Positions 1,769 to 52,395 of a stretch of 64,000 nucleotides of DNA are shown here, one piece after another; the stretch's first letter is position 1, and each line of letters opens with the position of its first letter. The notes beneath the pieces are model-generated. The model was not told where the DNA came from and did no database searches. It saw only the letters and a list, made by a program, of their open reading frames with translations. Where the stretch lies: NCBI RefSeq assembly GCF_016863295.1, contig NZ_BOOP01000004.1, positions 186,001-250,000 on the forward strand, given 5' to 3'. A program made the position numbers and the translations under genes. The DNA comes from Planotetraspora phitsanulokensis. Lineage in GTDB: Bacteria; Actinomycetota; Actinomycetes; Streptosporangiales; Streptosporangiaceae.

Positions 1769-1776
1769 ACCCGTCC

Positions 1777-1803
1777 CCCCGCGGCGCGAGGCGTGCCGCG
1801 GGG
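1777..1803. terminator. Hairpin just after the DUF6297 gene
   Basis: CCCCGCGGC (1777-1785) and GCCGCGGGG (1795-1803) form a perfect 9-bp stem around a 9-base loop, nine bases after the stop codon. It is GC-only with no T-run, as is common in actinobacteria. It may work together with the larger hairpin downstream. Confidence 0.5.
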
Positions 1804-1824
1804 TGTGCGCCACGGCCGGGTCGC

Positions 1825-1873
1825 GTCGGGCAGATCCCGCCCCCGCCGCACGCGGGGGCGGCATCTGCCCGAC
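1825..1873. terminator. Strong bidirectional terminator between convergent genes
   Basis: A long stem pairs GTCGGGCAGAT (1825-1835) with ATCTGCCCGAC (1863-1873). It continues through CCGCCCCCGC and GCGGGGGCGG with only a single mismatch or bulge and a 5-base loop. It lies between the 3' ends of the exporter permease and the PepSY gene, so it probably terminates both transcripts. Confidence 0.75.
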
Positions 1874-1899
1874 ACTCCCCAGGTGTTCAGTCCGGACGG

Positions 1900-2520: not shown

Positions 2521-2566
2521 GTCGCCAGAATCGGCGCGAGCACGCTAAGCCCGCGCTCGCGCATCG

Positions 2567-3844: not shown

Positions 3845-4521
3845 GACGGCTCGACCAGTTTGACTCCGACGCCGCGGACGGTCTGGATGTAGCGGGGATT
3901 CTGGGCGCTCTCCCCCAGTTTCCGCCTCAGCCAGGACAGGTGGACGTCGACGGTCTTGTCGGCCCCTCCGTACGGCACCAGCCACACCTCGGTGAGCAGC
4001 TCGCGTTTCGTGACGACCTCCCCCGGCCGGGAGGCCAGGTAGTACAGCAGGTCGAACTCGCGCGGCGTGAGGTCGAGGGCCGTCCCGCCGAGGGCCGCTT
4101 CGCGGCTGCGCAGATCCAGCCGCAGGTCGCCGATGACGACCGAGGAGTCGGCGCGCTCGTCGGACATCCGCCGCAACACGGCTCGGACGCGGGCGTCCAA
4201 CTGGGCCGCGCTGAAGGGCTTGACCACGTAGTCGTCGGCCCCCGCGTCCAGCAGGCGCACCACCTCCGCCTCGTCGTCCCGCGCAGTGGCCACGATCACC
4301 GGGACGCGGCTCACTGCACGGAGCATGCGTAACATCTCGGCGCCGTCCAGGTCGGGCAGGCCGAGGTCGAGCACGACCAGATCGGGACGCTCCGCGAGGG
4401 CCAGCCGCAACCCGTCGAGCGCGGTGTGCGAGGACGACACGGCGTGCCCCCGCTCGCGCAACCCACGCGTCAGGGCGGTACGGATGGTCGTGTCATCCTC
4501 GACAAGCAGGACATTTGCCAC
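3841..4521 (-). CDS. OmpR/PhoB-family response regulator
   Basis: The receiver domain begins VANVLLVEDD and has phospho-acceptor Asp52 (VVLDLGLPD) and conserved Lys101 (VVKPF). A C-terminal winged helix of the Trans_reg_C type follows (LTPREFDLLYYLASRPGEVV to YIQTVRGVGVKL). The start is set at the GTG that begins the receiver fold; an ATG twelve codons upstream, at 4557, is also possible. The gene is co-transcribed with the kinase and divergent from the small anchored protein at 4615, whose promoter region it may control. Confidence 0.92.
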   Translation of the reverse strand: MANVLLVEDDTTIRTALTRGLRERGHAVSSSHTALDGLRLALAERPDLVVLDLGLPDLDGAEMLRMLRAVSRVPVIVATARDDEAEVVRLLDAGADDYVVKPFSAAQLDARVRAVLRRMSDERADSSVVIGDLRLDLRSREAALGGTALDLTPREFDLLYYLASRPGEVVTKRELLTEVWLVPYGGADKTVDVHLSWLRRKLGESAQNPRYIQTVRGVGVKLVEPS

Positions 4522-13375: not shown

Positions 13376-13777
13376 ATGAGCACGACCATCGACAAGATCG
13401 CATGGATCCATCTGGAGGATGGCAGGGTCCTCAGCACCCGGTCGCGGGGCAAGGACGTCTTCTACTTCCCCGGCGGGAAGCGCGAGCCCGGCGAGAGCGA
13501 CCTCGACACTCTCGCCCGTGAGATCGACGAGGAGCTGGCGGTCACCGTCGTCCCCTCGACCGCCGCGCTCCTCGGCACCTTCGAGGCCCAGGCGCACGGC
13601 CACGGGGGCGGCGTCACCGTACGGATGACCTGCTACACCGCCGACCACCTGGGCACGCCGACGCCCAGCAGCGAGATCGAAGAGGTCGTCTGGCTGACCT
13701 ACGCCGACCGCGACCGCGTGTCACCCGTCGACCAGATCATCTTCGACCGTCTCCACGCGGAGGGTCGCCTTCGCTGA
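13376..13777 (+). CDS. Nudix hydrolase
   Basis: 133 residues. The Nudix box runs from GGKREPGESDLDTLAREI into the following DEELAV and supplies the Mg-binding glutamates. The protein probably hydrolyses a nucleoside diphosphate linked to another moiety; the substrate cannot be read. The start ATG has AGGAG at 13362-13366. The 3' end overlaps the convergent CtaG gene by 41 bases. Confidence 0.92.
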   Translation: MSTTIDKIAWIHLEDGRVLSTRSRGKDVFYFPGGKREPGESDLDTLAREIDEELAVTVVPSTAALLGTFEAQAHGHGGGVTVRMTCYTADHLGTPTPSSEIEEVVWLTYADRDRVSPVDQIIFDRLHAEGRLR

Positions 13778-30192: not shown

Positions 30193-33100
30193 TCATTCGG
30201 AAACATGGGCGACCTGGATCAGTCGTTGTTGTTGCCGGGTCACCAGCACTCCACGTCCCGAAGGTTGCCGAGACGGACGCACGTTGCCGATGAGATGCCC
30301 TTCCGCCTTGTCCCCGGAGAGAAGGAGACCACCGGTTCCCAGGTCTCGCAACCTCTGGAGCACCGGCTCGAACAGGGCTCGGCCGGCTCCACCTGAGCGG
30401 CGGGCGACGACCAGATGCAGTCCGATGTCATGCGACATCGGAAGCAGCTCGGTCAGCGGAGCCAGCGGGTTGCTGCCCAAGGTGGCCACCAGGTCGTAAT
30501 CGTCCACCAGCAGGTAGAGCTCCGGCCCCGTCCACCACGAGCGGTTGCGGAGTTGCTCTGGTGTGACATCAGGGCCGGGCAACCGCTCTTCCAACGCGGA
30601 TTTGAGATCGGCGATCGTGGAGGCGAGGGCAGGCCCGGAAGCGGCGTACCCGATCAGGTGTTCCGTGTCCACTGCACCCAGCAGCGCCCGCCGGTAATCG
30701 GCGATGATTATCCTGGCCTGCGTGAAATCGCTGCCCGCGACAATACCTCTGGCTATCAGCCGCAGCGTGTTCGACTTCCCGGATTCGTTTTCGCCAAAGA
30801 TCATCATGTTTGGCTCGGCTTCGAAATCCCACACGACTGGAGCTAGATCCCCTTCGCCCACCCCCAAGGGGATCAGGTGACCGAGGGGGCGCTTCAACGC
30901 GGCGAAGTCAGCCAACGGCAACACTCGGGGAAGCAGCCGGACCTGCGGCGCAGCCGGACCCCGCCATGCTTCACGCACTGCGTCGACCAAGTCCCGTACA
31001 CCTGTGCCAAGGTCCTTCACTGAGGCGTGCCCATCGATCCTGGGCAGGGCTGTCAGGAAGTGGAACTGGTCTGGGCTGAGCCCGCGCCCCGGCGTGCCTT
31101 CAGGCACCGAAGCCGCGATCCGTCGGTCGACCTCCGACTCCCCGGGATCTCCGAGGCGCAGTTCCAGCCGAGTGCCGAAAGTGTCCCGCAGAGCCGGCCG
31201 AACCGCGGACCAGCGCTCCGCGCTGAGCACGAGGTGGATCCCGTAGGCCGCGCCACGATGGGCGATGGCCAGAACATGGGGCTCGAGTTCCTCGAAGTCC
31301 TGGCGGAGCACACTCCAGCCGTCGATCACCAGGAACACGTCACCGAACTGATCTTCCGGCACTTGTCCGGCAGCCAACTGTTCGCGGTACGTATGCGCCG
31401 AGTCGAAGCCTCTCTTCAAGAAGATCTCTTCGCGCTGCGCCCGGATGTTCGCGACCTCCAGGACGATCCGGCGGACGCGTTCGCCCTCCAGTCGACCACC
31501 GACTCCACTCATGTGCGGAAGTCCGGACAGGGCGGCCAGCCCGCCGCCGCCGAAATCCAAGCAGAAGAACTGCACCTCGGTCGGCGTGTGGGTGAGTGCG
31601 AGCGAGGAGATGAGGGTGCGAAGCAGCGTCGTCTTGCCCGACAGCGGACCGCCGACGACGACCGCTTGTCCCCCTGCACCGGACAGATCGGCGTAGAGGA
31701 CGTCACGCCGTTGCTGGAACGGCCTGTCCATGATGCCGAGCGGGACGCGCAGTGATGAGTTCCCGGCGGACGGATCCGGCATGAGTCCACGCTCAGGATC
31801 GATGGCGAGACCCGGCAGCAGCGCATCCAATGTGATCGGGGCGCCCAGTGGGGGAAGCCACACCTGGTGGGCCGGCGGCCCCTGGCCCGCCAATTGCCGC
31901 ACGATCACATCGATTGTCAGGTCGCCGGGGACCGGCCCCCCTTCACCGGAGTCCTCCGGGGGGACGTGAACGGGGCCATCGGTATCCGGTCGGCGGTACG
32001 GATCCGAAGCGTAAGCGCCCTTGAACCTCTCCCGCGAGCCTGTGCCGCTGAACTGCAGGTAGCCGGAGCCGGGCAAGGGCAGGAGCTGGTAGGCGTCCGG
32101 CACTCCGAGGACGGCGCGACTTTCCGTGGCGGAGGAGGTCCTCAGCCCGATCCGGTAGCTGAGGTAGGTGTCCAAGCCTCGTAGAGTGCCCTCTTCCAAA
32201 CGTTGCGAAGCCAGGAGCAGATGTACACCGAGGCTGCGACCCAGCCGGCCGATCTGTGTGAATGTGTCAATGAATTCCGGCTTCGCCTTCAGCAGTTCAG
32301 TGAATTCATCGATCACGATCAGCAGTGACGGCAGCGGGGCCAGTTCCGTCCCGGCGGCCCGAGCAGCCTCGTAATCCCATACGCTGGCGTAATTTCCGGT
32401 CGCCAGCAGCTCCTGCCTCCGGGCCAGTTCTCCAGCGATGGCGTCACGCATCCGGTCCACTAGGACCAGCTCGTCCGCGAGATTCGTGATCGATGCCGCC
32501 ACGTGCGGCAGGGCGGTCATCCCGTTGAAGGTCGTGCCGCCCTTGAAGTCCGCCAGGATGAAGTTGAGATTCTCCGAGGAATGAGTCACGGCCAATGCGA
32601 GAACCAGGCTGCGTAACAACTCGGACTTGCCGGAACCGGTGGCTCCGACGCACAGACCATGCGGGCCCATGCCACCGCGCGCGGCCTCCTTCAGATCGAG
32701 CATCACCGGCTCGCCCTCGTAGCCGATTCCGATGGGCACTCGGAGCTGTTCCTGCAGCGGACGGGGACGCCACATCCGCGCAAGGTCGATGTCGGCAGCG
32801 TCTGCGATGCCGAGCAGTTCAGTCAGGAGCACATTCGAGGCGAGCGGTTCGGGCTCGTCGGGCTCGGCGGCCTCCACGGATGACCAGGCGTCCTGCACCT
32901 GGATCGACAAGGACACAATGGCTTCGCGGTCCCCGATGTGGTCCGCGTCCGCGTCGATCCTCGGCAGGGCCACTCGAAAGGGCCTGCCCCCCACGAGTCC
33001 CCTACCCGTGGCCAACGTGCTGGACAGCACCGAGTCGTATCGGGAGTCGCCCGGATCTTCCAATGCCAGCTCGTACCGCGTGCCCAAGATACTCAGTAGT

Positions 33101-34533
33101 TCTGCGGGTATATTGCTCCACTGCCGCGACGACAAAACGACATGAACGCCGTAGTAGAGGCCGGCATTGGCGACGCGCTGGACTTCCTGCTCCAGCACCT
33201 CTCGGCCGAGTGAGAAGTCGAGCCAACCGTCTATGACCAGGAACACGTCGCCATGCATTCCTGGCGGAAGCTTGCGTGACACCCGCAGCGCGCGGAATTC
33301 ATCCACCGACTCGATGTCCAGTCTGCGGAATATGCTCTGCCGCGATTCGATGATGTCCTGGGCCTTCGTGAGAACAGCGGTGACCATGTCGGCTTCGTGA
33401 GGGGCGGCCACCATCTGCACATGCGGCAGCCGACGCAGCACACCGAGTCCGTTCACCCGTCCTTCCAACAGGAAGAAGACCGCTTCTTCGGGGCTGTGCG
33501 TCAGCGCCAGCGCCATCAGGAGCGTGCGCAACAGCGTTGTCTTACCGCTGCCGGACTTGCCCACCACCGCGACGTGCCCGCCACGACTGGCCAGATCCGC
33601 GACCACCGGTTCCTCTCCGGTCCGGCGGTCGATCCGGCCGATGGGCACTTCCAGGCGAGAGGACCCCGGCCACGCCTCGCATCTCAGGCCCTGATCCATC
33701 GTGCTGACCAGTGGCGGCAGCAGTGACCCCAGAGCCAGGCCGTCCGCGATCCGGGTCGCGTTCCAGCTTCCGGACCGCTCGTGAATCGACGGCGCGTAGG
33801 CGAGATCGACGCGCCCCACACAGGAGCCTTTCTTGGTCGGCTTCTGCTCCTCGCCCAACTGCGAGACCACGGCGCGGAAAACGTAGTCGTACAACTCGTC
33901 GGGGGTGACGATGCCATCCCGGTTGGCGTCGGCTGCGCCCGACCGCAGGCCTTCGATCACTGCACTGGTGAATACCGAGGCCGGTTCACCGTTGTCGGTG
34001 AATTGGGTCCCCTCATAGGCGTAGGCAAGGCTGGTGGTCGAAGTCAGTACGACGGTGCCCTTCCCCACCACCTCGCGTTCCACGTCGACTCGCCGTTCGG
34101 ACCGCGTGGACAAGCCCCGGTTGAAGAGCCCGCCGTAACAACAGTCCAATAGGACGATCTTGGCCGCCGCCTCGCACTCATCGAGAAGATCGTGAACGAA
34201 GGAAGCCCGGATCGCCGTGGTGTTCCGGCGGACCAGTTGCGTGTCAACGGTCGCGAAGAACAGCCGGTCCATGTCGTTCGCCAGCCCATGACAGGCCATG
34301 TAGAGCAGTACCAGGTCATCGGGCATACGGTTCGTGAGCAGCTCTTCGATGGCCGCCTCGATCTCCGCCTTCGGACGGTTCAGCAGAACGCGCACATGGT
34401 CGAACCGGCCAATCGACTGATCTTCGAGCAGTACCGCCAGCTGGCCGGCGTCTCTGCCCGGGGCACGGAGCTGGTTCAGTCCCGGGTCCCCGTAACCATC
34501 AGTTGCGATCAGTAGCGCGATCCTCCGGCCCAC
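30193..34533 (-). CDS. Caspase-like protease fused to four FtsK/EccC-type ATPase modules
   Basis: 1446 residues. Residues 1-250 are a caspase-like (peptidase C14) domain with the catalytic pair His82 (MACHG) and Cys132 (LLDCCYGG). An EF-hand-like loop lies at 202-213 (DANRDGIVTPDE). Four P-loops follow: GKSGSGKT (325-332), GATGSGKS (630-637), GGPLSGKT (961-968) and GENESGKS (1247-1254). Only module 2 has the full EccC D1 set, with ADFKGGTTF and Walker B Asp742-Glu743. Modules 1 and 3 have IDGW instead. Modules 2-4 match D1-D3 of type VII secretion EccC; module 1 looks like an extra copy of D2. The two N-terminal membrane helices of EccC are absent, so it is probably cytosolic. The GTG start overlaps the EACC1-like gene by 35 bases. 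The substrate and trigger are unknown. Confidence 0.9.
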   Translation of the reverse strand: MGRRIALLIATDGYGDPGLNQLRAPGRDAGQLAVLLEDQSIGRFDHVRVLLNRPKAEIEAAIEELLTNRMPDDLVLLYMACHGLANDMDRLFFATVDTQLVRRNTTAIRASFVHDLLDECEAAAKIVLLDCCYGGLFNRGLSTRSERRVDVEREVVGKGTVVLTSTTSLAYAYEGTQFTDNGEPASVFTSAVIEGLRSGAADANRDGIVTPDELYDYVFRAVVSQLGEEQKPTKKGSCVGRVDLAYAPSIHERSGSWNATRIADGLALGSLLPPLVSTMDQGLRCEAWPGSSRLEVPIGRIDRRTGEEPVVADLASRGGHVAVVGKSGSGKTTLLRTLLMALALTHSPEEAVFFLLEGRVNGLGVLRRLPHVQMVAAPHEADMVTAVLTKAQDIIESRQSIFRRLDIESVDEFRALRVSRKLPPGMHGDVFLVIDGWLDFSLGREVLEQEVQRVANAGLYYGVHVVLSSRQWSNIPAELLSILGTRYELALEDPGDSRYDSVLSSTLATGRGLVGGRPFRVALPRIDADADHIGDREAIVSLSIQVQDAWSSVEAAEPDEPEPLASNVLLTELLGIADAADIDLARMWRPRPLQEQLRVPIGIGYEGEPVMLDLKEAARGGMGPHGLCVGATGSGKSELLRSLVLALAVTHSSENLNFILADFKGGTTFNGMTALPHVAASITNLADELVLVDRMRDAIAGELARRQELLATGNYASVWDYEAARAAGTELAPLPSLLIVIDEFTELLKAKPEFIDTFTQIGRLGRSLGVHLLLASQRLEEGTLRGLDTYLSYRIGLRTSSATESRAVLGVPDAYQLLPLPGSGYLQFSGTGSRERFKGAYASDPYRRPDTDGPVHVPPEDSGEGGPVPGDLTIDVIVRQLAGQGPPAHQVWLPPLGAPITLDALLPGLAIDPERGLMPDPSAGNSSLRVPLGIMDRPFQQRRDVLYADLSGAGGQAVVVGGPLSGKTTLLRTLISSLALTHTPTEVQFFCLDFGGGGLAALSGLPHMSGVGGRLEGERVRRIVLEVANIRAQREEIFLKRGFDSAHTYREQLAAGQVPEDQFGDVFLVIDGWSVLRQDFEELEPHVLAIAHRGAAYGIHLVLSAERWSAVRPALRDTFGTRLELRLGDPGESEVDRRIAASVPEGTPGRGLSPDQFHFLTALPRIDGHASVKDLGTGVRDLVDAVREAWRGPAAPQVRLLPRVLPLADFAALKRPLGHLIPLGVGEGDLAPVVWDFEAEPNMMIFGENESGKSNTLRLIARGIVAGSDFTQARIIIADYRRALLGAVDTEHLIGYAASGPALASTIADLKSALEERLPGPDVTPEQLRNRSWWTGPELYLLVDDYDLVATLGSNPLAPLTELLPMSHDIGLHLVVARRSGGAGRALFEPVLQRLRDLGTGGLLLSGDKAEGHLIGNVRPSRQPSGRGVLVTRQQQRLIQVAHVSE

Positions 34534-35622: not shown

Positions 35623-36369
35623 TCACAGCCGGGATCTCAGCACGTCGACCTCACAGCCCGGCGCGAACGGGTCGAAGCCGTGCTCGACCAGCCAGCGAAC
35701 CACTAGCAGGCTTCGCAACGACCACCACGCGCGGATCACGTCGAGGTCGACGTCGGCGCCATAGCCGGCGACGACGTCGCCGAGGCGCTCCTCGCGTCCG
35801 AGCGTCAAGGTGGCGAGGTCGAACAGGGCATCACCTTGGCCCGCCTCGGACCAGTCGATGATGCCCGTGATCCCGTCGCCGTCGACGAACACGTGAGCGA
35901 TCTGCAGGTCGCCGTGCGTGAACACCGGAGCCCACGGCCGGAGCGCGGCCTCGGCGACCTGGCGGTTGCGGGTGACCAGGTCGGCGGGCAGGACGCCGTT
36001 CGTCACGAGCCACTCGCACTCGCCGTCGAGATCCGCCGCCAACTCGTCGAGGCCCCGGCCGGCCCGGCCGGGCCGGGGCGGCAACGGCGCGTCGTGCAAC
36101 CTCCGGATGGCGGCGCCCGCCGCGGCCCACGCCGCCGGGGACGCGGTCGACGGCTCGCCGAGGCGGCCGAGCGCCGTCCCCGGGACTGCGGCGATGGCGA
36201 GCACCGGCGGCTTGTGCCACAGGACCTTCGGGGTCGGGACCGGTGCCAGGGCCATCGCCTCGACCTCGACGTCGATGCGCGCCTGATCGGCGTCCACCTT
36301 CAGGAACACGTCGCCGACGCGCAGCGTCGCGCGCTCGGAATGGGCGACGACCATTTGGACTTCATCCAT
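35623..36369 (-). CDS. Aminoglycoside phosphotransferase-family kinase
   Basis: 248 residues. The APH/choline-kinase active site is present: the Brenner-type motif THGDLQIAHV (catalytic Asp, with Gln at the usual His/Asn-proximal position) and the metal-binding IIDWSEAGQGD. The N-lobe is short (FLKVDADQARIDVEVEA) and carries the ATP-binding Lys. It may phosphorylate an aminoglycoside, a macrolide or a cell metabolite. Lying between insertion-sequence remnants, it is probably acquired cargo. Resistance is not established by sequence. Confidence 0.87.
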   Translation of the reverse strand: MDEVQMVVAHSERATLRVGDVFLKVDADQARIDVEVEAMALAPVPTPKVLWHKPPVLAIAAVPGTALGRLGEPSTASPAAWAAAGAAIRRLHDAPLPPRPGRAGRGLDELAADLDGECEWLVTNGVLPADLVTRNRQVAEAALRPWAPVFTHGDLQIAHVFVDGDGITGIIDWSEAGQGDALFDLATLTLGREERLGDVVAGYGADVDLDVIRAWWSLRSLLVVRWLVEHGFDPFAPGCEVDVLRSRL

Positions 36370-40137: not shown

Positions 40138-40459
40138 CGACAGCCCGTCCAGATGCGGCTGTGGCGCCCCAAAGGCAACAACCCGATTCCTGGACAATCG
40201 AGAACTGGCTGGACCCCGGCTCTTCTCTTGCGTGCACGCCATTCGAGACGAAACATTCGGCCGAGTATCCCATTCTAATTCTCGCCCGGTAGACGACTCC
40301 CCTTTTCGCTGGTTGCCGGAAAACCATTTCTCGATCCGAGAACGACGACTCCACACCACAAAACATTTCGGGAGGGCATTGGCCAGCCGGCGACCGGGAC
40401 CGGTCCCGAACTGGAAGCGGTAGCGTGCGATCGTCCCGCAGGACAGGAGGGAGCGCGAG
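40138..40459. other. Gene-free stretch before the FHA/kinase cluster
   Basis: About 320 bases, noticeably less GC-rich than the flanks. It probably carries the promoter of the FHA/kinase cluster. GGAGGGAGCG about 14 bases before the GTG start serves as ribosome-binding site. Two similar short sequences, AAACATTCGG and AAACATTTCGG, occur about 110 bases apart. No clear promoter is called. Confidence 0.5.
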
Positions 40460-41269
40460 GTGACGATCAGAGAATTCGTGCCGCAGGTATTGCCGAGTTC
40501 CATGCGCAGCCTGGCGGGTGGGGTGCCGCCGGCACCGCCGGGCACGATTTTCGCACTGGCCGCCTCCAACGGGTTCGCGGTGCCGCCCCGGAAGTTCACC
40601 CTTCATTTCGGTCGCGGCGAGGACGACGTCCACGTGCCGGTCGGCGTCGGCGATCCGTATGTCAGCCGGCTACAGGGTGTGCTGGTGTGTGACGGCCGGG
40701 AATGGTGGGTCCGCAACAAAGGCAAGCTGCCGATTCAACTGCCGGGCGGAGCGCTGTTGTTGTCCGGCCACGAACTGCTGATCGAACCCGGTTACACCCC
40801 GTTGCTCATCGGTTCCGCCAAGCGCCGGTCGCATCTGCTGGAGATCCACGTCGTCGGTTCACCGGCCACCGATGCCGACGGCGATCAGCACAACCGGACC
40901 AAGGCACCGGATGTCTACGAGCTGAGCCTGGTGGAGCGGCTGGTGCTGACCGCGCTCGCCCAGCGATACCTGCGCCAGGAACGCTATCCGCAACCCGTGT
41001 CGTGGAACCAGGTGGCCGACGACCTCAACCGGCTGCCGGACGGCAGACAGTGGACGCCGAAGACCGCGGCGCACATCGTCGGCGCGGTGCGCGAGCGGCT
41101 GGCGGAGGGCTCCGATCCGATACCGGGCATCCGGCGCGAGGACGGGGTCGGCGAACCGGTGGGCAACACGCTGAACCACAACCTGATTCAGGCGCTGCTG
41201 CGCAGCGCCACGCTGATGCCGGCGGATCTGCACCTGCTCGGCGAGGACCCCGATGAGAACCATGAGTGA
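40460..41269 (+). CDS. FHA-like domain protein with C-terminal winged-helix-like region
   Basis: 269 residues, GTG start. An FHA-like beta sandwich spans about 25-130: FTLHFGRGEDDVHVPVGVGD carries the Gly-Arg of the phosphothreonine site, then YVSRLQGVL replaces the usual SRxH. The C-terminal half (about 150-255) is helical (LSLVERLVLTALAQRYLRQE, NQVADDLNRL, TAAHIVGAVRERL) and resembles winged-helix domains attached to FHA units in actinobacterial kinase clusters. It probably docks on phosphorylated targets of the next kinase. Its 3' end overlaps that gene by 17 bases. Confidence 0.8.
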   Translation: MTIREFVPQVLPSSMRSLAGGVPPAPPGTIFALAASNGFAVPPRKFTLHFGRGEDDVHVPVGVGDPYVSRLQGVLVCDGREWWVRNKGKLPIQLPGGALLLSGHELLIEPGYTPLLIGSAKRRSHLLEIHVVGSPATDADGDQHNRTKAPDVYELSLVERLVLTALAQRYLRQERYPQPVSWNQVADDLNRLPDGRQWTPKTAAHIVGAVRERLAEGSDPIPGIRREDGVGEPVGNTLNHNLIQALLRSATLMPADLHLLGEDPDENHE

Positions 41270-44200
41270 GATCACGTTGACGTGGCGGGTCGGCGAGGTG
41301 GTCGACGGCCGGTACGAGGTGACCCGGGTGCACGAGCACGGCGGGATGGGCGTGGTGTACCGGGTCCGGCACCTGGGGTGGGACATCGACCTCGCGGTGA
41401 AAAGCCCGCGGCCGGACCTGTTCCGCACCGCGGAGGATCAGCGACGGTTCGTCGACGAGGCGGAGACGTGGGTCTCGCTCGGGCTGCATCCGCACGTGTG
41501 CAACTGCTACTACGTCCGCGTGCTCGACGGCGTGCCCCGGGTGTTCGCCGAGTACGTCCCGGGCGGCAGCCTGCATGAGTGGATCGACGACCGGCGGCTG
41601 TATGACGGCGACCCACCCCAGGCACTGGCCCGGATCCTGGACATCGCGATCCAGACCGCGTGGGGACTCGACCACGCCCACGGCCGCGGCTTGGTGCACC
41701 GGGATGTCAAGCCCGCCAACGTGCTGCTCGACGCCGAGGACGGCGCGGTCGTCGCGAAGATCACCGACTTCGGCCTGGCTCGGGCGCGGGACCTGGCCGC
41801 CACGGTCAGCCCCGACGCGCCGCCCGGCGCCAGCATTCTGGTACCCGGCGGCGATGGCATGACTCCGCGGTACGCCTCTCCCGAGCAGGCGGCCGGCGAA
41901 TCGATGGGGCGGCGCACCGATGTCTACAGCTTCGCGGTGTCGGTGCTGGAGATGTGCATCGGCGAGGCGACGTGGATGGCCGGGCCCGCCGCGGGTGCCG
42001 CGCTGACCGGCTATCGCGCCGGCGACGTGGCCGGTGCCGTCGTCATCCCGCCGGTGCTCGGCGACCTGCTCGAGCGCTGCCTGAGCCACGACCCCGCCGA
42101 CCGGCCGAACTCCATGGCCGACGTCGCCTCCGAGCTGATCGACATCTACCGGGAAGTCACCGGCGACGCGTATCCGCGCCCGGCTCCCGTGACGGCCGAC
42201 CTGCTCACCGGCGAGCTCAACAACCGGGCGGTGTCGCTGCTCGACCTCGAGCGGCGATCCGAGGCCGATCAGGCCTTCGAGCGGGCGTTGGCAGCCGATC
42301 CGCAGAACGTGCGCGCCATGTACAACTCCGGGCAGGCCCTGTGGCGTCGCGGCGCCGTCACCGACGACGCCCTCGTCGCCGAGATCGAGGCGGCCCGCGC
42401 GGACACCGGCGACCCCTGGGAGGTGCGGTATGCGCTCGCCCAACTCCACCTGGAACGCGGTGACCTCAGCACGGCTCGCAGGTTTCTCGACGAACTGGCC
42501 CAGGAGCGGCCGGACGAGCCGGAGGTGCTCGCCGCCCTGCGCGTGATCCGGTCCGGTGAGATCATCGACGCCCGCCGCACCCGCGAATGGCCGGTTCCCT
42601 GGCCGCTGCGCCCGCGCGATCTCTGGGACGTCGGCAGGCACGCTGAACGGACCGCGCTCGCCCTCACTCCCGATGGCCGGTTCATGGCGGCCGGCGGCTG
42701 GGACGGGGTGGTCCGCATCTGGGACGTCCACAGTGGGCAGCTCGTGTGGACGCTCAAGGGACACCGCACGACCGTGCACGCGGTGGACCTCACCCCGGAC
42801 GGGCGCTTCGCCGTCTCCGTCTCTGAAGACGAAACCGTGATGTTCTGGAAGCTGGCCAGGGGCCGGTTCGGGGGCTCTCCCAAGGGCCGCCGCCTGTACG
42901 CCAGCCCCAACCCTCCGTCATGGGCCGGCGACGGCGGCTCGCGCCTCGGCGTCACCGCGGTCCGGCTCACCCTCGATGGGCGTTTCGCCCTCTACTCGGG
43001 CCTGGACGGCGGGTTCCGGGTCTGGGATGTCCACAGTGGACAGCTGCGGACGCTCGACGAGGCCGCGACCGACCGGTTGGTGGAGGTGAGTGCCGACGGA
43101 CGCCTGGCGCTCTCCGTCAGCGGGGAGAAGCCCGGACGCTCCCGGAAACGGGTTGTGCGGCTGTGGGATCTGGCCGACGGCCGGTGCCTGCTGGAGCTGC
43201 CCGGACACGAGTCGGCGGTGACCGCCCTGTCTCTCAGCGCCGACGGCCGTTTCGCGGCCACCGATTGCCGCCAGGGGGCGATCCGCGTCTGGGATCTCCG
43301 CGATGGCCGCTGCGTGCACGTCCTGACGGGCGGTATCACGGCCGACGCCCTGTCCTTCAGCGCCGACGCGCGGTTCCTGCTGTCCGGCACCGAGTACTCC
43401 GATGCCATCCGATTATGGGAACTGGACCGCGGCCGATGCCTGCGGACCTTCCGCGCACATCAGGGTGGTACCACCGTGGTCCGGCTGGACGCGGACGCCC
43501 GGTTCGGACTCTCGGTCGGCCAGGACAGGACGGTTCGGCGATGGGAACTGCCCGGCGCGTACCGCGGCGCCCCGCTGCTGAGCCGGCCGCGCCCGCACGT
43601 CGAGCTGAGCCGGCTGGGCGGCCGGGTGGACGAGCTGGTCGCCGAGGCGGAGCGGGCGACGGCGGACGGCCGTTTCCCCGCGGCGCTCGAACGACTTCGG
43701 CAGGCACGCGCGGTCACCGGGTACGAGCGGGAGCCGCGCGTCATGTCCGCCTGGTGGACATTGGGCCGCCACTCCGTCCGGACGGGACTGCGGGCGGCCT
43801 GGTCGTCGCGGGCCTTGCAGACCGATGAGCTGACCGCGGTCGACCTGACCCCCAACGGCCGCATCGCCGTGTCCGGCGGCCGCGACGGGACGGTTCAGCT
43901 GTGGGACCTGATCACAAACAGCCGCCTGAGGGTTCTCGAGGGACACGAGGAGATGGTGGAGTCGGTCCGTCTGAGCGCCGACGGACGATTGGTCCTGTCG
44001 TCGAGCCGGGACCGCACGGTGCGGCTGTGGGATGTCGGCACAGGCGCGTGTCTGCACGTGCTGAACCGCGCGAAGGGGGCGATGTACCACTCGGCGCCGG
44101 TGCGGTTCAGCGCGGACGGCAGGCAGGCCGTGGTCGGCGGCCAGGACGGCCTGATCCGGTACTGGGACCTGGAAACCGGCGCCCTGACCCGGGAACTGGG

Positions 44201-44906
44201 GAAGGGTGCCTGGGGAGTCGACGACATGTGCGTCGGCGACGACGGACGTCTCGTCGTGATGGCCAAGGGCGGCAACGCGGAAGTGTGGAACCTGACGGAC
44301 GCCCAGCCCCTGCACCGTCTCCGTGGGGTCGAGCGTGGCCTGCTCGCGCGCAATATACGCTCGATCTCGCTCAGCGCCGACGGGCGTTTCGCACTGGCCG
44401 GCGACGACAACGGCATCCAGTTGTGGAACATCACGACCGGGGATGTCGTGCGCACGCTCGACCTGCCGGAGTCGAACGGGTTCCACACCGTCAGGATGAC
44501 CGCTGACGGAAGGTTCGCGGTGTCCGGCCACTACTGGTCGCACACAACGGTCTGGGACCTCCGCAGTGGACAACGCGTACGGGCCCTCGACGGCCACGAG
44601 CAGGGGATGAGCTGTCTCGCGCTGACGCCCGACGGCCGCTTCGTGCTGACCTCGACGGGCGGCAGCCTGCGCCTGTGGGAGCTCGACTGGGAGCTCGCCG
44701 CCCGGGACGCGGCCGACTGGGACGACGGCGCGGCGCCGTACCTCGAGGGGTTCCTGCGACGGCACGGTCCACAGTGGACGGACGAGGATCTCGACGCCCT
44801 GACGGGCCGGCTCGAGGACGCCGGCTATGGCTGGCTGCGCGCCGACGGGGTGCGAACCCGACTCGACAGCATGACCGCCGACCGGGGCGGCTCCGCGACC
44901 CGATGA
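41253..44906 (+). CDS. Serine/threonine kinase with TPR-like region and two WD40 propellers
   Basis: 1217 residues. The kinase domain (1-295) has a glycine loop (HEHGGMGVVY), Lys50, HRDVKPAN (149-156) and DFGLA (172-176), so it looks active. A TPR-like helical part follows (about 320-425; LLDLERRSEADQAFERALAA). WD40 repeats then form two sets: seven units ending in W-D/E/K-type strands (about 455-790), a helical spacer with another TPR-like hairpin, and seven more (about 855-1150). This predicts two seven-bladed propellers. There is no membrane segment, so the protein is cytosolic. An alternative start is 41262. The stop overlaps the next gene as ATGA. Confidence 0.92.
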   Translation: MRTMSEITLTWRVGEVVDGRYEVTRVHEHGGMGVVYRVRHLGWDIDLAVKSPRPDLFRTAEDQRRFVDEAETWVSLGLHPHVCNCYYVRVLDGVPRVFAEYVPGGSLHEWIDDRRLYDGDPPQALARILDIAIQTAWGLDHAHGRGLVHRDVKPANVLLDAEDGAVVAKITDFGLARARDLAATVSPDAPPGASILVPGGDGMTPRYASPEQAAGESMGRRTDVYSFAVSVLEMCIGEATWMAGPAAGAALTGYRAGDVAGAVVIPPVLGDLLERCLSHDPADRPNSMADVASELIDIYREVTGDAYPRPAPVTADLLTGELNNRAVSLLDLERRSEADQAFERALAADPQNVRAMYNSGQALWRRGAVTDDALVAEIEAARADTGDPWEVRYALAQLHLERGDLSTARRFLDELAQERPDEPEVLAALRVIRSGEIIDARRTREWPVPWPLRPRDLWDVGRHAERTALALTPDGRFMAAGGWDGVVRIWDVHSGQLVWTLKGHRTTVHAVDLTPDGRFAVSVSEDETVMFWKLARGRFGGSPKGRRLYASPNPPSWAGDGGSRLGVTAVRLTLDGRFALYSGLDGGFRVWDVHSGQLRTLDEAATDRLVEVSADGRLALSVSGEKPGRSRKRVVRLWDLADGRCLLELPGHESAVTALSLSADGRFAATDCRQGAIRVWDLRDGRCVHVLTGGITADALSFSADARFLLSGTEYSDAIRLWELDRGRCLRTFRAHQGGTTVVRLDADARFGLSVGQDRTVRRWELPGAYRGAPLLSRPRPHVELSRLGGRVDELVAEAERATADGRFPAALERLRQARAVTGYEREPRVMSAWWTLGRHSVRTGLRAAWSSRALQTDELTAVDLTPNGRIAVSGGRDGTVQLWDLITNSRLRVLEGHEEMVESVRLSADGRLVLSSSRDRTVRLWDVGTGACLHVLNRAKGAMYHSAPVRFSADGRQAVVGGQDGLIRYWDLETGALTRELGKGAWGVDDMCVGDDGRLVVMAKGGNAEVWNLTDAQPLHRLRGVERGLLARNIRSISLSADGRFALAGDDNGIQLWNITTGDVVRTLDLPESNGFHTVRMTADGRFAVSGHYWSHTTVWDLRSGQRVRALDGHEQGMSCLALTPDGRFVLTSTGGSLRLWELDWELAARDAADWDDGAAPYLEGFLRRHGPQWTDEDLDALTGRLEDAGYGWLRADGVRTRLDSMTADRGGSATR

Positions 44907-45088
44907 CCGGATACACCGACAGCGCGGCGCTCGCTCTCGGCGTCGCCCGGATCGAGGCGCGGTCCGTCCGGGCGTCCGAAATCGGGCCGGGGCATCTGCT
45001 CGTGGCGCTGAGCTCGATCCGAGTCGAGGCCGCCGGCAGCGAACTGGTCTGCACCCCCACCCTTCAGCCAGGAGGTACGGCTCGATGA
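44903..45088 (+). CDS. Tiny ClpN-like protein between two kinase genes
   Basis: 61 residues, too short for most gene finders but tightly placed. Its ATG overlaps the WD40-kinase stop (ATGA), and its TGA overlaps the next ATG (ATGA). The sequence SAALALGVARIEARSVRASE followed by IGPGHLLVALSSI resembles the first helices of Clp N-terminal domains, which recruit substrates to Clp ATPases. Only about one of the two helical repeats is present. It may be a truncated adaptor, or a new small component of the cluster. ClpN similarity is by eye. Confidence 0.6.
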   Translation: MTGYTDSAALALGVARIEARSVRASEIGPGHLLVALSSIRVEAAGSELVCTPTLQPGGTAR

Positions 45089-46446
45089 CGGCCACCGTCA
45101 CGTTGCGGCTCGTCAAGGGGCGGCTCGACCGCACCGAGTACGTTTTCGACGAGCGGACCACCTGCATTCTCGGCCGTGCCGACGACTGCGCACCGCGACT
45201 GCCGGGCGACGAGTACCACCGCACCGTCTCCCGGCACCACTGTCTGCTCGACATCAACCCGCCCGACGTACGCATCCGCGACTTCGGCAGCCTCAACGGC
45301 ACGTTCGTCAACGGCGAGAAGATCGGCCAACGGGAGGCACACCAGACGCCGGCGGAGGGCGCGGCGATCTCCTTTCCGGAACACGACCTGACCGACGGAG
45401 ACGAGATCCGGCTCGGCGAGACGGTTTTCCGGGTGGCGATCCGGCTCCCGGCCGGACAACACACCCTGTCGCTGGCCCGGTGCGCGAAATGCGGCCAGGA
45501 GGTGGGCAGCGAACTCGGCGGCCGGTCCGGCGAATACGTCTGCGCCGCCTGCCAGGCCGAGCCGGGCGCCATGGCCGAACTCCTGGTGGGCCTCGCGCGC
45601 AGCGGGCACCGCGAACTCACCCCGATCGCCGGGTACACGCTGCTGAGGGAGCTCGGCCGCGGCGGGATGGGCGTGGTGCATCTCGCCCGCCACGAACACA
45701 CCGGCCAGGAGGTGGCGCTGAAGGTGATGCTGCCCAGGGTCGCGGCGAGCCCGACCGCCCGCGCGCGGTTCTTCCGCGAGGTGGAACTCACCAGGGCGCT
45801 GCGGCACCCCAACATCGCCGTGCTCTACGACACCGGTTTCGCCAACGGCACGTTCTACTTCACCACCGAATACTGCGCCGGAGGCAGCCTGGACCGGCTC
45901 CTAGCTCGTCGGGGTGGCCGGCTCGAAGCCGCCGACGCCGTACGACTCGCCTGCCAGGCCCTGGACGGCCTGGCACACGCACACAGCGAGAACGTCGTCC
46001 ACCGCGACCTGACCCCGCACAACATTCTGCTGGACGCGACCAACGGCTCGCTGGTGGCCAAGGTGGGCGACTTCGGCCTCGCCAAGGCCTTCGACCAGGC
46101 GGGCCTCAGCGGCCTCACCAGAACCGGCGCGACCGCCGGCAAGCCCCTGTACATGCCCCGCCGGCAAGTGATCAACTTTCGTGACGTCACACCGGCCGTG
46201 GACGTGTGGGCGCTCGCCGCGTGCCTCTACCACGCACTGACCGGCGCGTACCCCCGGGACTTCCCGCGCGGCAAGGACCCCTGGCAGGTCATCCTGCAGG
46301 CCGAGCCGGTGCCGATTCGACGACGCGAGCGGAACGTCCCGGCGCCCCTCGCCGAGGTCATCGACGAAACACTCCGCGAGAACCCGAAGGGCGCCTTCCA
46401 AACCGCGGTCGAGTTGCGCCGCGCACTGCTCGCATGTTCACGCTAG
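45085..46446 (+). CDS. FHA domain, zinc ribbon and serine/threonine kinase fusion
   Basis: 453 residues. An FHA domain (about 5-118) has Gly30-Arg31, Ser49-Arg50-His51 and Asn71-Gly72, the complete phosphothreonine-binding set. A zinc-ribbon follows (Cys133, Cys136, Cys153, Cys156). The kinase domain (183-450) has GRGGMGVVHLA, Lys213, DFGLA (329-333) and catalytic Asp308. The usual HRDxKPxN reads HRDLTPHN, with Thr310 in place of the ATP-contacting Lys, so activity may be altered. It is the last gene of the coupled cluster. The FHA domain could bind a site phosphorylated by the WD40 kinase. Confidence 0.92.
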   Translation: MTATVTLRLVKGRLDRTEYVFDERTTCILGRADDCAPRLPGDEYHRTVSRHHCLLDINPPDVRIRDFGSLNGTFVNGEKIGQREAHQTPAEGAAISFPEHDLTDGDEIRLGETVFRVAIRLPAGQHTLSLARCAKCGQEVGSELGGRSGEYVCAACQAEPGAMAELLVGLARSGHRELTPIAGYTLLRELGRGGMGVVHLARHEHTGQEVALKVMLPRVAASPTARARFFREVELTRALRHPNIAVLYDTGFANGTFYFTTEYCAGGSLDRLLARRGGRLEAADAVRLACQALDGLAHAHSENVVHRDLTPHNILLDATNGSLVAKVGDFGLAKAFDQAGLSGLTRTGATAGKPLYMPRRQVINFRDVTPAVDVWALAACLYHALTGAYPRDFPRGKDPWQVILQAEPVPIRRRERNVPAPLAEVIDETLRENPKGAFQTAVELRRALLACSR

Positions 46447-46578: not shown

Positions 46579-47496
46579 TCAGACGGCTCCTGTGATCGAG
46601 ACTCGGGCGGGTGCGCGGAAGACCTGTCGGCTGTGCCACTCGATGTGTGTCGGCTCGACGCCGTCGAGCCCGGGCCGGGGCTCACGAACCCGGCGGCCTC
46701 CCAGGGACAACACCATGCTCCTCGCCGAGGCGGTTCTCCCGACGAACTTGGCGGACACTCTGATCGTCCGCTCAGAGGTAAGACCGAAGACACCCTTGTC
46801 GAACAGCTTGTGATGGAGAACGCACAGGCACAGCCCGTTGGCCACCTCGTCCGGTCCTTCGAAGGCCCACCAGCGGACATGTGCGGCGTCCAAGCCGACC
46901 ACGGTCCCGTCCAACCAGCCGTCGTACTCGCAGAACGCACAGCAGTAGTCGTAGGCCATGAGGATCTGCTCGCGGAATGCCGGATCACGGCGGGGTTGAT
47001 CATCGCCCGGGAGGGCTTCTTGACTTGGATGCCCAAGCTCGAGGCTTTCCAGTTCCAGGCCGGCCGAGATGCAGATGTCCGCATGTAAGGAAGGCTCGAA
47101 GTTCGCGTCGAGGAGAACCCTGGCAAGTCTCGCCACCAACCGAGAATCATCCGACAGTGCCTTCACCAGGTCCGGATGGAGGCGCCCCGACGCCTTGCTC
47201 TCCCTGAGACGACCAAGCTCCGAACCGGGGCTTCCCGGGCCGTTCTCGGTCTCAACCAGCCAAACGCCGTCGCTGGTCAGATGGTGAAACGGATACCCGG
47301 GGCTGGTCTCCCGTGGCGGGCCGAATTCCTTGAGCAGGCGTTTCAGATCCGCCTCAGCCGCACTGAACGGGATCGGCTCGCCACCTCGGCGCTGGAACCG
47401 GCCGAGGGCGTAGAGCAGCAACAACGGCTTGTGCGGGGCCCGCTCGCCATTACGCGTCCATCGCCTGAGATCGGTGATTCTCTCCGTCCAGTCCAT
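46579..47496 (-). CDS. SBD-HNH restriction endonuclease, phosphorothioate-DNA type
   Basis: 305 residues. The N-terminal half matches the sulfur-binding-domain type found in ScoMcrA-like enzymes (APHKPLLLLYALGRF and LKEFGPPRETSPGYPFHHLT and SDGVWLVE). The C-terminal HNH nuclease has CAFC, LDAAHVRWW (His206), Asn220 and LHHKLFD (His229). Such type IV enzymes cut DNA carrying phosphorothioate or modified cytosine. The ATG at 47496 begins the conserved domain. No dnd or pbe modification genes lie in the window, as expected for an enzyme that attacks foreign modified DNA. Confidence 0.87.
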   Translation of the reverse strand: MDWTERITDLRRWTRNGERAPHKPLLLLYALGRFQRRGGEPIPFSAAEADLKRLLKEFGPPRETSPGYPFHHLTSDGVWLVETENGPGSPGSELGRLRESKASGRLHPDLVKALSDDSRLVARLARVLLDANFEPSLHADICISAGLELESLELGHPSQEALPGDDQPRRDPAFREQILMAYDYCCAFCEYDGWLDGTVVGLDAAHVRWWAFEGPDEVANGLCLCVLHHKLFDKGVFGLTSERTIRVSAKFVGRTASARSMVLSLGGRRVREPRPGLDGVEPTHIEWHSRQVFRAPARVSITGAV

Positions 47497-48107
47497 AAGT
47501 CGCCAGTCTAGGGCGATCTTGCGTGACCGCAGAGACGACGTCCAGAGGGGACGCCACCGTCGAGGACGTCCTTCTTTGTTGTGGTACTGCGTCAAGCCAA
47601 CAACATTCCACTCCAAAGGCGATTCATTCTGGAGAAAGAGGCCAAGAGCGACATTCATCACCAAACCGGTTTATCTAGTGACCATCTCCACGGGAATCGC
47701 AGGAGGACATGCGGCGCCAATCCGGCGTAGGCCAGGAGACCGCGACCAGACCGTGGGTCTTGGTGCGAAGAGCTGCGCTTTTGGGCATCTGTGTGAGGTC
47801 GCCGCCGTTCGGCCAGTAAGCGAACGTCGGGGCCGGGACACCTCTGACGCGCCCTGCGCCGGGCAGCGCCGGGCAGCGGGCAAATCAGATATAAATGACA
47901 GTTCTGAGCAATATGCTCGCCATTTGGTCAACATCATCAATAAAACGACAACCGGCGCGCAAAAGCGCCCGAACGTCGTTTGACGCGCGGTCGCCACGGA
48001 AAGCAAGACGACAGATGGATGGCCCGAAAAGGGTCTCCACAAGCGCATATGCCTGATTACCTAGGAACTATCAAAGCAATTGGGTAAACGTTTTAGGAGG
48101 AAATTAA
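47497..48107. other. AT-richer 0.6-kb intergenic region with a hairpin
   Basis: Gene-free between the HNH gene and the secreted protein. The distal part, from about 47880, is clearly AT-richer than its surroundings. AAACGAC (47943-47949) pairs with GTCGTTT (47975-47981), and GGCGC with GCGCC inside, making a hairpin. A strong AGGAGG precedes the ATG at 48108. The long leader may be regulatory, but no known riboswitch was recognised. Confidence 0.5.
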
Positions 48108-50655: not shown

Positions 50656-52395
50656 GTGGCGCTGGCACTCACGGTCGATGACCCGCGCCGCCTGGGCGTC
50701 TACGAAATCGTGGCGCGCATCGGAGAAGGCGCACAGGGCGCGGTCTACCTCGGGCGATCGCCATCGGGCGATCAGGTCGCGGTCAAGCTGCTGCACGCCC
50801 GGCTCTCCGGCGATCCCGAGGCGCGCGCCAGGTTCCTGCGCGAGGTCTCGGTCGCCCAGCGGGTCGCCCGGTTCTGCACCGCGCCCGTCCTGCACGCCGA
50901 CCTCGAGGGCAACCAGCCCTACATCGTCAGCGAGTACGTTCCGGGGCCGTCGCTGCGCGAACTCGTGCAGCGTGAAGGGCCGCGGCGAGGAGCCTCGCTC
51001 GACCGCCTGGCGATCAGCACGGTGACCGCTCTGGCCGCGATCCACCGGGCGGGTGTCCTGCACCGCGACTTCAAGCCGGCCAACGTGCTGATGGGCCCGG
51101 AGGGCCCCGTCGTCATCGACTTCGGCATCGCCAAGGCGCTGGACACACCCGGCACGACGGCCACCGGAGACACCCTCGGCACGCCCTCCTACCTGGCCCC
51201 CGAGCAAGTCCACGGCGCGAACGTGACGCCCGCGGCGGACATGTTCGCCTGGGGCATCACCATGGTGTTCGCCGCCACCGGGACTCCCGCCTTCGGTTCG
51301 GACACCATCCCCGCGGTGATCCAGCGCATCCTCAACGAGCAGCCCGATCTCACCGCCCTGGACGCACCGCTGCGTGACGTGGTCGCCGCATGCCTGTCCA
51401 AGGATCCCGCCCGCCGCCCCTCGGCCGAGGACGTGCTGGCCTACCTGATGGGGCAGCAACCGGCCGGATCGAGCACAGGCGATCCGCGGAGCAGCGAGAG
51501 TCACTGGAACACCCTCACCCCACGCAGCGATCAAACAGTCGACCGCAGGAGCGGCAGCGGAAGTCCCGGGAACGGGAATGGCGTTCATATCGGGAACGAC
51601 GGACACGTCGCCGACCAGACGCACGCGGGCAAAGGCAAGCCGCGACGAGCTGTCACGCTGACGGTCTCGGCGGTGGTCGCCTGTGCCGCCCTGGTCGCCG
51701 GCACCCTGGCGCTCACGAGGTCGTCCGACGTGCCCGGCGGATCCACCGCCATCACGCCGCAGGCGCAAGCCGTGGCCGAGCCCGGCGGCGACCAGGCCCA
51801 GGACGACGGTCAGGCCGCGGACAGCCGGCCTTCAGGCGGGCAGGCCGGCGGACAGGCCAACGGACAGGCTGGCGGGAGCTCGCCGGACAAGACCTCCGCG
51901 ACCAAGGGCCCGAACGCGGCCGGCGCCTCCGCTCCCCCGCCCGCGACGTCGACTTCCCGGCCCACTCCCGCGAGCACCGCACCGCGACAGACGGACCCCG
52001 CATCGCCGCCTTCGTCACCCACCCCGTCGGCACCCGTGCCGAGTTCCGCCCCCGCCACGACACCGCCCAAGCCGAACCCGTACACGGCGACTCAGGTGTG
52101 CGGGTCCGGATACAAGGTCATCGACTCGCACGCCCTGAACGGCGCCACGATCTACCTGCTCTACAGCAGCGGGTCGGGGAAGAACTGTGTGGTGACGATG
52201 TCGAAGTACGTCATCACACAGAAGATCAAGATGAGTGCCGTTCTGCAGGTTCAGGGCGGTTCCACCGGCAGCGACTCGGGAAGCTACACCGCCTACGCGG
52301 GCCCGATTCGGTTGTCGGCCCCGGGCACGTGCGTGATCTGGGGCGGCGGGTACGGCTCGGCCAGCTGGAAGAGCAGCTGGTCCCACTGCGGTTAG
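50656..52395 (+). CDS. Transmembrane serine/threonine protein kinase
   Basis: 579 residues. The kinase domain (15-265) has IGEGAQGAVYLGR, Lys44, HRDFKPAN (136-143) and DFGIA (155-159) and looks active. A juxtamembrane segment (270-330) and one membrane helix (about 333-353) follow. Outside lies a long Pro/Ser/Thr/Gly/Gln-rich wall-spanning linker (360-475) and a C-terminal domain of about 100 residues with four cysteines (QVCGSGYKVI, NCVVTMSKY, GTCVIWGGG, WSHCG). It lacks PASTA repeats, so the sensor is of another type. The start is a GTG. Confidence 0.93.
   Translation: MALALTVDDPRRLGVYEIVARIGEGAQGAVYLGRSPSGDQVAVKLLHARLSGDPEARARFLREVSVAQRVARFCTAPVLHADLEGNQPYIVSEYVPGPSLRELVQREGPRRGASLDRLAISTVTALAAIHRAGVLHRDFKPANVLMGPEGPVVIDFGIAKALDTPGTTATGDTLGTPSYLAPEQVHGANVTPAADMFAWGITMVFAATGTPAFGSDTIPAVIQRILNEQPDLTALDAPLRDVVAACLSKDPARRPSAEDVLAYLMGQQPAGSSTGDPRSSESHWNTLTPRSDQTVDRRSGSGSPGNGNGVHIGNDGHVADQTHAGKGKPRRAVTLTVSAVVACAALVAGTLALTRSSDVPGGSTAITPQAQAVAEPGGDQAQDDGQAADSRPSGGQAGGQANGQAGGSSPDKTSATKGPNAAGASAPPPATSTSRPTPASTAPRQTDPASPPSSPTPSAPVPSSAPATTPPKPNPYTATQVCGSGYKVIDSHALNGATIYLLYSSGSGKNCVVTMSKYVITQKIKMSAVLQVQGGSTGSDSGSYTAYAGPIRLSAPGTCVIWGGGYGSASWKSSWSHCG

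Follow-up and report, generated by a model that had tools for sequence, protein, structure and literature searches.

A probable mobile kinase–FHA signalling cassette in Planotetraspora phitsanulokensis that has lost its Clp unfoldase by in-frame deletion

Introduction

Can a handful of overlapping genes in an actinobacterium join Ser/Thr phosphorylation to Clp-type proteolysis? Ser/Thr kinases and FHA readers are widespread in bacteria, but few links between them and regulated proteolysis are known. The question is raised by a stretch of 64,000 nucleotides of Planotetraspora phitsanulokensis (contig NZ_BOOP01000004.1, positions 186,001 to 250,000; hereafter the window), in which a first-pass annotation had proposed a phosphorylation relay made of two kinases, two FHA proteins and a tiny ClpN-like protein. 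Phospho-directed degradation in actinobacteria could be tested directly on an operon that couples a pair of kinases and a pair of FHA readers to a Clp unfoldase of its own. A search of the open-licence literature in PubMed Central retrieved no report of this gene cluster. The answer that we favour, and consider reasonably probable, is that the genes form a horizontally moving actinobacterial kinase–FHA signalling cassette whose optional output is Clp-dependent proteolysis, this output having been lost in the window strain by deletion.

Locus layout and reading frames

The four-gene cluster is present as ORFs on the forward strand (Table 1), and three of them, FHA1, KWD and FZK, are intact. Related loci are given by code where they need to be told apart: L034 is from Planotetraspora kaengkrachanensis (genome G002; identical over the 5 kb compared), L038 from Rugosimonospora, L040 from Dactylosporangium and L043 from Actinorhabdospora. 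Overlaps of 17, 4 and 4 bases had been taken to imply fixed stoichiometry. Both 4-base overlaps (ATGA, between KWD and the clp remnant and between the remnant and FZK) stand, but that of 17 bases between FHA1 and KWD is obtained only from the upstream ATG. It measures 8 bases in L034, L038, L040 and L042, so the conserved start of KWD is probably at 41262. Overlaps of 4 and 8 bases suggest translational coupling only, and the claim of fixed stoichiometry is therefore withdrawn. Averaged over their history, all three intact genes have evolved under constraint (in comparison with the nearest relative, dN/dS is 0.196 for FHA1, 0.352 for KWD and 0.291 for FZK), which is compatible with a very recent loss of function.

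Table 1. Positions of the cassette features and of other window genes mentioned in the text (window coordinates)
Feature	Position	Strand	Description
Putative mobile cassette	40388–46446		Stretch that aligns with G002, a relative in the genus (L067, L068)
FHA1	40460–41269	+	269 aa; N-terminal FHA domain (about residues 27–133) and helical C-terminal domain of about 110 aa
FHA1 C-terminal domain	40913–41245	+
KWD	41253–44906	+	Kinase-TPR-WD40 protein; 1217 aa counted from the first ATG
clp remnant	44903–45088	+	61 codons, from a 770-codon Clp AAA+ unfoldase gene
clp remnant, 5' end	44903–45017	+
clp remnant, 3' end	45013–45088	+
TCGAT, deletion junction	45013–45017	+	Single copy here; at both deletion ends in L034 (12833, 14960)
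AGGAGG, likely FZK ribosome-binding site	45070–45075	+	Within the retained clp 3' end; same in L034
FZK	45085–46446	+	453 aa; FHA-Zn-ribbon-kinase
Caspase-NACHT-FtsK/SpoIIIE fusion	30196–34533	−	1446 aa
APH-type kinase	35626–36369	−
HNH restriction endonuclease	46579–47664	−	Directly downstream of the cassette
Ser/Thr kinase	50656–52392	+	579 aa

The small ORF is a deletion scar

The tiny ClpN-like protein turned out to be something else. It had no Pfam match at E≤1, Clp_N included, and a search of 60 genomes (its own among them) retrieved its residues 1–39 and 37–61 about 2.1 kb apart in a single 862-codon frame of G002, where an intact 770-codon two-ring Clp AAA+ gene lies between KWD and FZK. 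The window ORF consists of the first 38 and the last 23 residues of this L034-type Clp. Relative to L034, exactly 2,127 bp are missing, in frame (remainder 0 modulo 3) and with 5 bp of TCGAT microhomology at the junction; 709 codons of the unfoldase have thus been removed in the window strain by a microhomology deletion. Since L040 and L043, from two other genera, hold the intact gene, the deletion and not an insertion is the derived state. The first-pass advice to look for a partner of ClpA/ClpC type was essentially sound. That partner is the deleted gene itself, which three relatives keep intact. Among the matches in the strain's own genome there was no second intact copy of the cassette clp, only four other Clp proteins, 39–49% identical over the stretches that matched, and the two remnant ends.

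The start and stop of clp survive in the scar, along with the two 4-base overlaps and the AGGAGG that precedes FZK, and its 61 codons may still couple FZK translation. A stand-alone ClpN adaptor was rejected as the identity of the small protein, since the ORF is the two joined ends of an unfoldase gene. It is likewise very improbable that the joined product now functions as an adaptor or inhibitor of ClpN type, through which the kinases would be connected with the housekeeping Clp protease. Its first 38 residues do align with the start of Clp N-domains (weak fold support) and its 5' part shows no elevated dN/dS (0.276). However, constraint cannot be demonstrated over as few as 36 codons, and relaxed selection on the remnant was not detectable either. 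Most of the N-region is missing, the other end is the C-terminal tail of the unfoldase, and the ORF is one deletion product in one genome: at E≤1e-8 the Clp N-region profile matched 1 of 394 genomes of the class, namely the remnant itself. No more intact clp genes were retrieved from the 394 class genomes, nor from 35 genomes of one family (f19) in a search without positive control. Very small 'domain' genes within operons can be deletion scars and call for caution.

Intact cassette Clp proteins

The intact proteins of L034, L040 and L043 share 59–66% identity (L040 66% and L043 63% to L034), and the Walker A and B motifs of both rings are intact in all three. The D2 loop reads LGF in L034 and L043 and AGF in L040; at this position the strain's ClpC-like protein has VGF and its three ClpB-like proteins a gap, these labels being assigned here from the loop and the length of the M-region. 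An LGF loop is described as a marker for ClpP1P2 docking in the excerpted text of PMC10149685. By its LGF-like tripeptide, the cassette Clp falls into the ClpP-docking class of unfoldases, and docking is predicted; the loop is deleted in the window. The span from LPDKAID to GQ, which corresponds to the M-domain region, measures 73–75 aa in the cassette proteins, against 127 in the ClpC-like and 190–191 in the ClpB-like proteins, so that the cassette Clp has no M-domain.

Against PDB chains, E. coli ClpA aligned in one stretch and full-length ClpB and ClpC in two. The NCBIfam scores of the L034 protein are all under the cut-offs (ClpA 599 of 993, ClpB 668 of 1232 and ClpV 577 of 885 bits). With the strain's own proteins as proxies rather than the M. 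smegmatis references, it scored 467 bits against the ClpC-like protein and 281+224, 269+231 and 286+224 bits against the ClpB-like ones; these four other Clp proteins are 39–52% identical to the cassette Clp in the main matched stretches. Among the best 25 Pfam families for each protein, Clp_N appeared only in L040, as a partial match of 21.9 bits (cut-off 20.7). The AlphaFold model of the N-region is poor (mean pLDDT 67 in 3 rows), with the N-domains of ClpC and ClpA ranking first against it at E 0.07–0.19.

FHA1 and the two kinases

The identification of two FHA readers holds, by different routes. FZK is recognised by Pfam, with an FHA domain at residues 28–87 (57 bits). FHA1 alone had no Pfam FHA match at E≤1, and the family was matched in 22 of the 31 FHA1 family members. 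The AlphaFold model of FHA1 (mean pLDDT 83.8) resembles solved FHA domains with Z 9–12 in structure comparison: Rv1747 FHA-1 (Z 11.7, rmsd 2.4, 96 residues), GarA (6i2p chain E, Z 10.8) and the FHA domain of EmbR (2fez, Z 10.3). In the VIA-align list, which barely probed the C-terminal part, residues 6–138 were covered only by FHA-type chains. Across the 31 aligned rows, G51, R52, S69 and G88 are invariant and R70 and N86 are conserved in at least 90%; R52, S69 and N86 we take to be the phospho-Thr contacts of known FHA domains. By its modelled fold and these residues FHA1 qualifies as an FHA phospho-Thr reader, for which binding is predicted.

The C-terminal domain of FHA1 is more conserved than the protein as a whole (69% mean column identity in 30 rows against 55% in 31 rows) and carries an LNHNLI-type motif. 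It matched no known family with confidence, neither a DNA-binding domain nor any other. HTH_31 was matched in one of the 30 domains (E 0.0048), the profile of the domain retrieved nothing better than E 1 from the PDB, and comparison with one sigma factor gave a probability of 0.2%; a helix–turn–helix identity is unproven. No match to FHA1 was found on plasmids or phages.

Both kinases and the WD40 repeats noted on first pass were confirmed with Pfam. KWD has a Ser/Thr kinase domain at residues 29–288 (Pkinase, 102 bits), a weak TPR-like stretch (about 325–441) and nine WD40 matches in two blocks (about 465–770 and 856–1150). Relative to the window, the KWD kinase domain of the related locus L067 holds an in-frame insertion of about 50 residues (13618–13769; same in L034). 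The FZK kinase domain spans residues 184–434 (Pkinase, 146 bits) and is preceded by a zinc-ribbon-like CxxC...CxxC stretch (about 131–157), present in 11 of 13 relatives.

In the FHA domain of FZK, the GR and SRxH motifs are conserved in 13 of 13 proteins and the Asn of NG in all except that of L103, so that what are presumably the phospho-Thr-binding residues of known FHA domains are kept in 12 of 13. The activation loop reads TRT in 12 of 13 (TRS in L044), and paired Thr were not seen in the aligned segment of KWD. Most kinases of M. tuberculosis are controlled by two activation-loop Thr, and there is a model of an FHA protein on the activation loop of a kinase (both from the excerpted text of PMC4238996). 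The Lys of HRDLK in the catalytic loop of FZK is replaced by Ser or Thr (HRDL[TS]P) in 12 of 13 proteins, and kinase activity is for this reason only assumed.

Distribution of the gene set

A scan of 84,980 genomes with exact peptide patterns, which is not exhaustive, retrieved 33 FHA1 loci, of which 14 (L034–L047) are close, with at least 52% identity. Within the DNA fetched around these 14, FZK was found in nine, KWD in eight (split in L035), both in six and Clp in three. The gene order is conserved outside the strain: FHA1, KWD and FZK are collinear in three of the 14, with Clp in between in L034 and L040 and without it in L038. The Dactylosporangium locus has the same order of FHA, kinase/WD40, Clp and FHA/kinase genes, the Actinorhabdospora locus is rearranged and that of Rugosimonospora lacks Clp. 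Considering that only three of 14 close loci carry clp and that the order is broken in L043, Clp is optional. As for the remaining loci, the L039 contig ends after KWD, L042 has FHA1 and KWD only, and neither KWD nor FZK was seen in L041, L045 and L046. L036 (10268–16091) and L037 (10156–16057) have FHA1 and FZK but neither KWD nor Clp; the two genes that come next encode a CHAP-domain protein and a kinase-nSTAND1-WD40 protein. Three further loci, L101–L103, contain KWD-FZK pairs without FHA1 in the fetched DNA; a 47% identical FHA1 is encoded elsewhere in the genome of L101. Upstream of the pair in L103 lies a 1378-aa CHAT-domain (caspase-like) protein (2–4135, forward strand).

In the 19 distant loci (L048–L066), neither KWD nor Clp was detected and the only matches to FZK, at 30–33%, were in the kinase domain, but some kinase gene adjoins or is near FHA1 in 12 of them; several of the other seven are short contigs. 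The combination of two kinases and one FHA reader recurs as a gene set. Distant FHA1 homologues in L048, L056, L062, L070, L073 and L104 lie beside two tandem kinases of another type. For many kinases beside distant FHA1 homologues, the best-matching query was a further window kinase (Table 1). The cassette is rare, and its occurrence patchy, among the genomes of the class that were sampled: FHA1 was detected in five of 296 (E≤1e-30, with up to 8 candidates scored per genome) and the FZK N-region in four of 394, the strain's own genome counted in both. Among 60 relatives, again with its own genome, FHA1 was present in eight (E≤1e-3; one only at 5.9e-4).

With clp in a minority of loci (3 of 14), the gene might be a chance passenger, functionally unconnected to the kinases, but we give this little credence. 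It lies directly beside FZK in three genera and two families, and in L034 and L040 it starts after KWD with a 4-base GTGA. Moreover, the Clp of L034 is 66% identical to that of L040 and 63% to that of L043, values close to those for FZK of the window and these two loci (67 and 69%), and identity of the cassette Clp to the strain's other four Clp proteins is only 39–52% in the main matched stretches. In the KWD tree, the window pairs with L034 (100/100), and the three Clp-bearing loci do not form one group, L038, L039 (the truncated contig) and L042 lying between them. In the FZK tree, the row closest to the window is L034, although the fork with L040 is unresolved; these three form one group (89/92, not starred), from which L043 is separate. 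Repeated loss of Clp would be a simpler reading of these trees than repeated gain.

Apparently broken members of the family occur, with a split KWD in L035, a truncated FHA1 in L046 and an FHA1 in two ORFs in L065. Together with the loss of one gene in the window, this decay of parts is what would be expected if the window copy were a dying operon, made useless already by the loss of its unfoldase. We regard this as improbable, since the three remaining genes are open and constrained on historical average (with which a very recent loss of function is compatible), and a Clp-less FHA1-KWD-FZK set exists in L038.

Cassette borders and neighbourhood

The DNA shared between the window and G002 begins 72 bp before FHA1 and ends with the stop codon of FZK. 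The alignment is broken at the clp deletion and at a 150-bp insertion, and the flanks compared do not align, the sole exception being a 38-bp match between window position 60180 and a stretch inside the G002 clp gene. G001, another genome of the genus, keeps the TetR gene and the DNA from 48681 onward at 92–94%, but the 4.7 kb between them, which encode sigma-factor-like and hydrolase-like ORFs (from their translations), share no DNA with the window at the same sensitivity. As the shared DNA stops at the borders of the gene set in G002 and none was detected at this place in G001, the set behaves as a cassette.

One neighbour in the window is a fusion of caspase (Peptidase_C14), NACHT and FtsK/SpoIIIE domains, with partial matches of only 31–37% in the four other genomes of the genus. 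Another is a phosphorothioate-DNA-binding HNH restriction endonuclease (NF045808, 335.8 bits, over the cut-off). The APH-type kinase has a weak, sub-threshold match to TCAD9 (ternary complex associated domain).

A link to defence or development had been raised on first pass. Among the flanking genes of other loci that were scanned with Pfam, no conserved defence or effector neighbours were found; only two kinds of flanking gene recurred between loci, namely TPR proteins (L043, L102) and the CHAP and kinase-nSTAND1-WD40 pair (L036, L037). When the genes of 33 loci and the window, called with a crude gene caller, were clustered, the only clusters spanning more than three loci were those of FHA1, KWD, FZK and further kinases. 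PADLOC matched two of 10 flanking genes of other loci, both partially, and among its best 25 matches to the cassette most were to generic kinase domains. The MADS6 scores (KWD 101.6 and FZK 129.5 of 460 bits) are below the cut-off, and matches to PD-T4-6 and mad6, from a library without cut-offs, are confined to the kinase domain.

Alternatively, the genes might be a conflict module resembling KKP, in which the two kinases would be a toxic effector held off until infection, with FHA1 and Clp as modulators. In the excerpted text of PMC11341870, KKP is a phage-blocking, co-dependent kinase pair, one member of which carries an FHA domain. The rarity and patchiness of the cassette and the conflict-type genes nearby (the caspase-NACHT-FtsK fusion and the phosphorothioate-DNA restriction enzyme) are in keeping with such a role. 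On the other hand, no PP2C phosphatase was found among the window genes scanned (nine flanking, the four of the cassette and TetR, not every small ORF), no cold-shock domain was seen on either kinase (for KWD, among the best 25 of 69 families), and the PADLOC matches are those described above. We consider this alternative unlikely, and any defence role would be conjectural.

Proposed mechanism

Returning to the signalling cassette with an optional Clp output, a phospho-relay among its proteins is plausible from their sequences. The core would be KWD, which may act as sensor or scaffold through its TPR stretch and its two blocks of WD40 repeats, and FZK, with its own FHA domain and zinc ribbon, often joined by FHA1. 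KWD or some trigger may activate FZK, which would autophosphorylate the paired Thr of its own activation loop. The resulting phospho-Thr could then be read by FHA1 and by the FHA domain of FZK, bringing in targets. In the intact form, the dedicated Clp, M-domain-less and with an LGF-type ClpP-docking loop, would degrade or remodel the recruited proteins. A relay of this kind is proposed because the phospho-Thr-binding residues of the FHA domains and the paired Thr of FZK are conserved.

A more specific version, which we offer tentatively as a possibility well short of an even chance, is phospho-gated proteolysis: the FHA readers would hand proteins carrying kinase-made phospho-Thr to the dedicated Clp, and lineages would disarm the system by deleting only the unfoldase. 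If true, bacteria would have in this cassette a counterpart, based on Ser/Thr phosphorylation, of phosphodegron systems. The Clp-plus, Clp-deleted and Clp-less forms that exist in nature lend themselves to a direct comparison.

Comparison with known systems

The cassette resembles KKP in its two adjacent kinases, one of them FHA-fused (FZK here), carried on mobile DNA; the two KKP kinases work only together (excerpted text of PMC11341870). It differs in that no phosphatase or cold-shock domain was seen and in the presence of a stand-alone FHA protein and a Clp. Moreover, KKP is reported only from Gram-negative species, whereas the cassette is actinobacterial.

ClpI of Actinomycetota is an accessory two-ring class, the third after ClpB and ClpC, and resembles these two to about the same degree; ClpIa carries an LGF loop, the M-domain of ClpI is of ClpC-like length, and the excerpted text of PMC10149685 reports no conserved neighbours. 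In its roughly equal distance from ClpB and ClpC, the cassette Clp is like ClpI. Unlike ClpI, it lacks the M-domain, as judged from the span given above, and it sits in a kinase–FHA operon.

The pairs PknH-EmbR and PknB-GarA share with the cassette an FHA protein beside a kinase with a two-Thr activation loop. In FHA1, as opposed to EmbR and GarA, the FHA domain is N-terminal, and the C-terminal domain matched no DNA-binding or other family.

Compared with the type VI secretion system (T6SS), the cassette has two kinases and no secretion genes among the window genes scanned. The cassette Clp also scores nearer to ClpB and ClpA than to ClpV (668, 599 and 577 bits, all below cut-offs) and has the ClpP-type LGF loop. 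Nevertheless, PpkA, Fha1 and ClpV of the T6SS are the same trio of Ser/Thr kinase, FHA protein and two-ring Clp ATPase. There, in what may serve as a precedent for the relay proposed here, kinase and FHA protein place the Clp-type ATPase, phosphorylation of Fha1 itself being unneeded for the recruitment of ClpV1 (excerpted text of PMC3953482).
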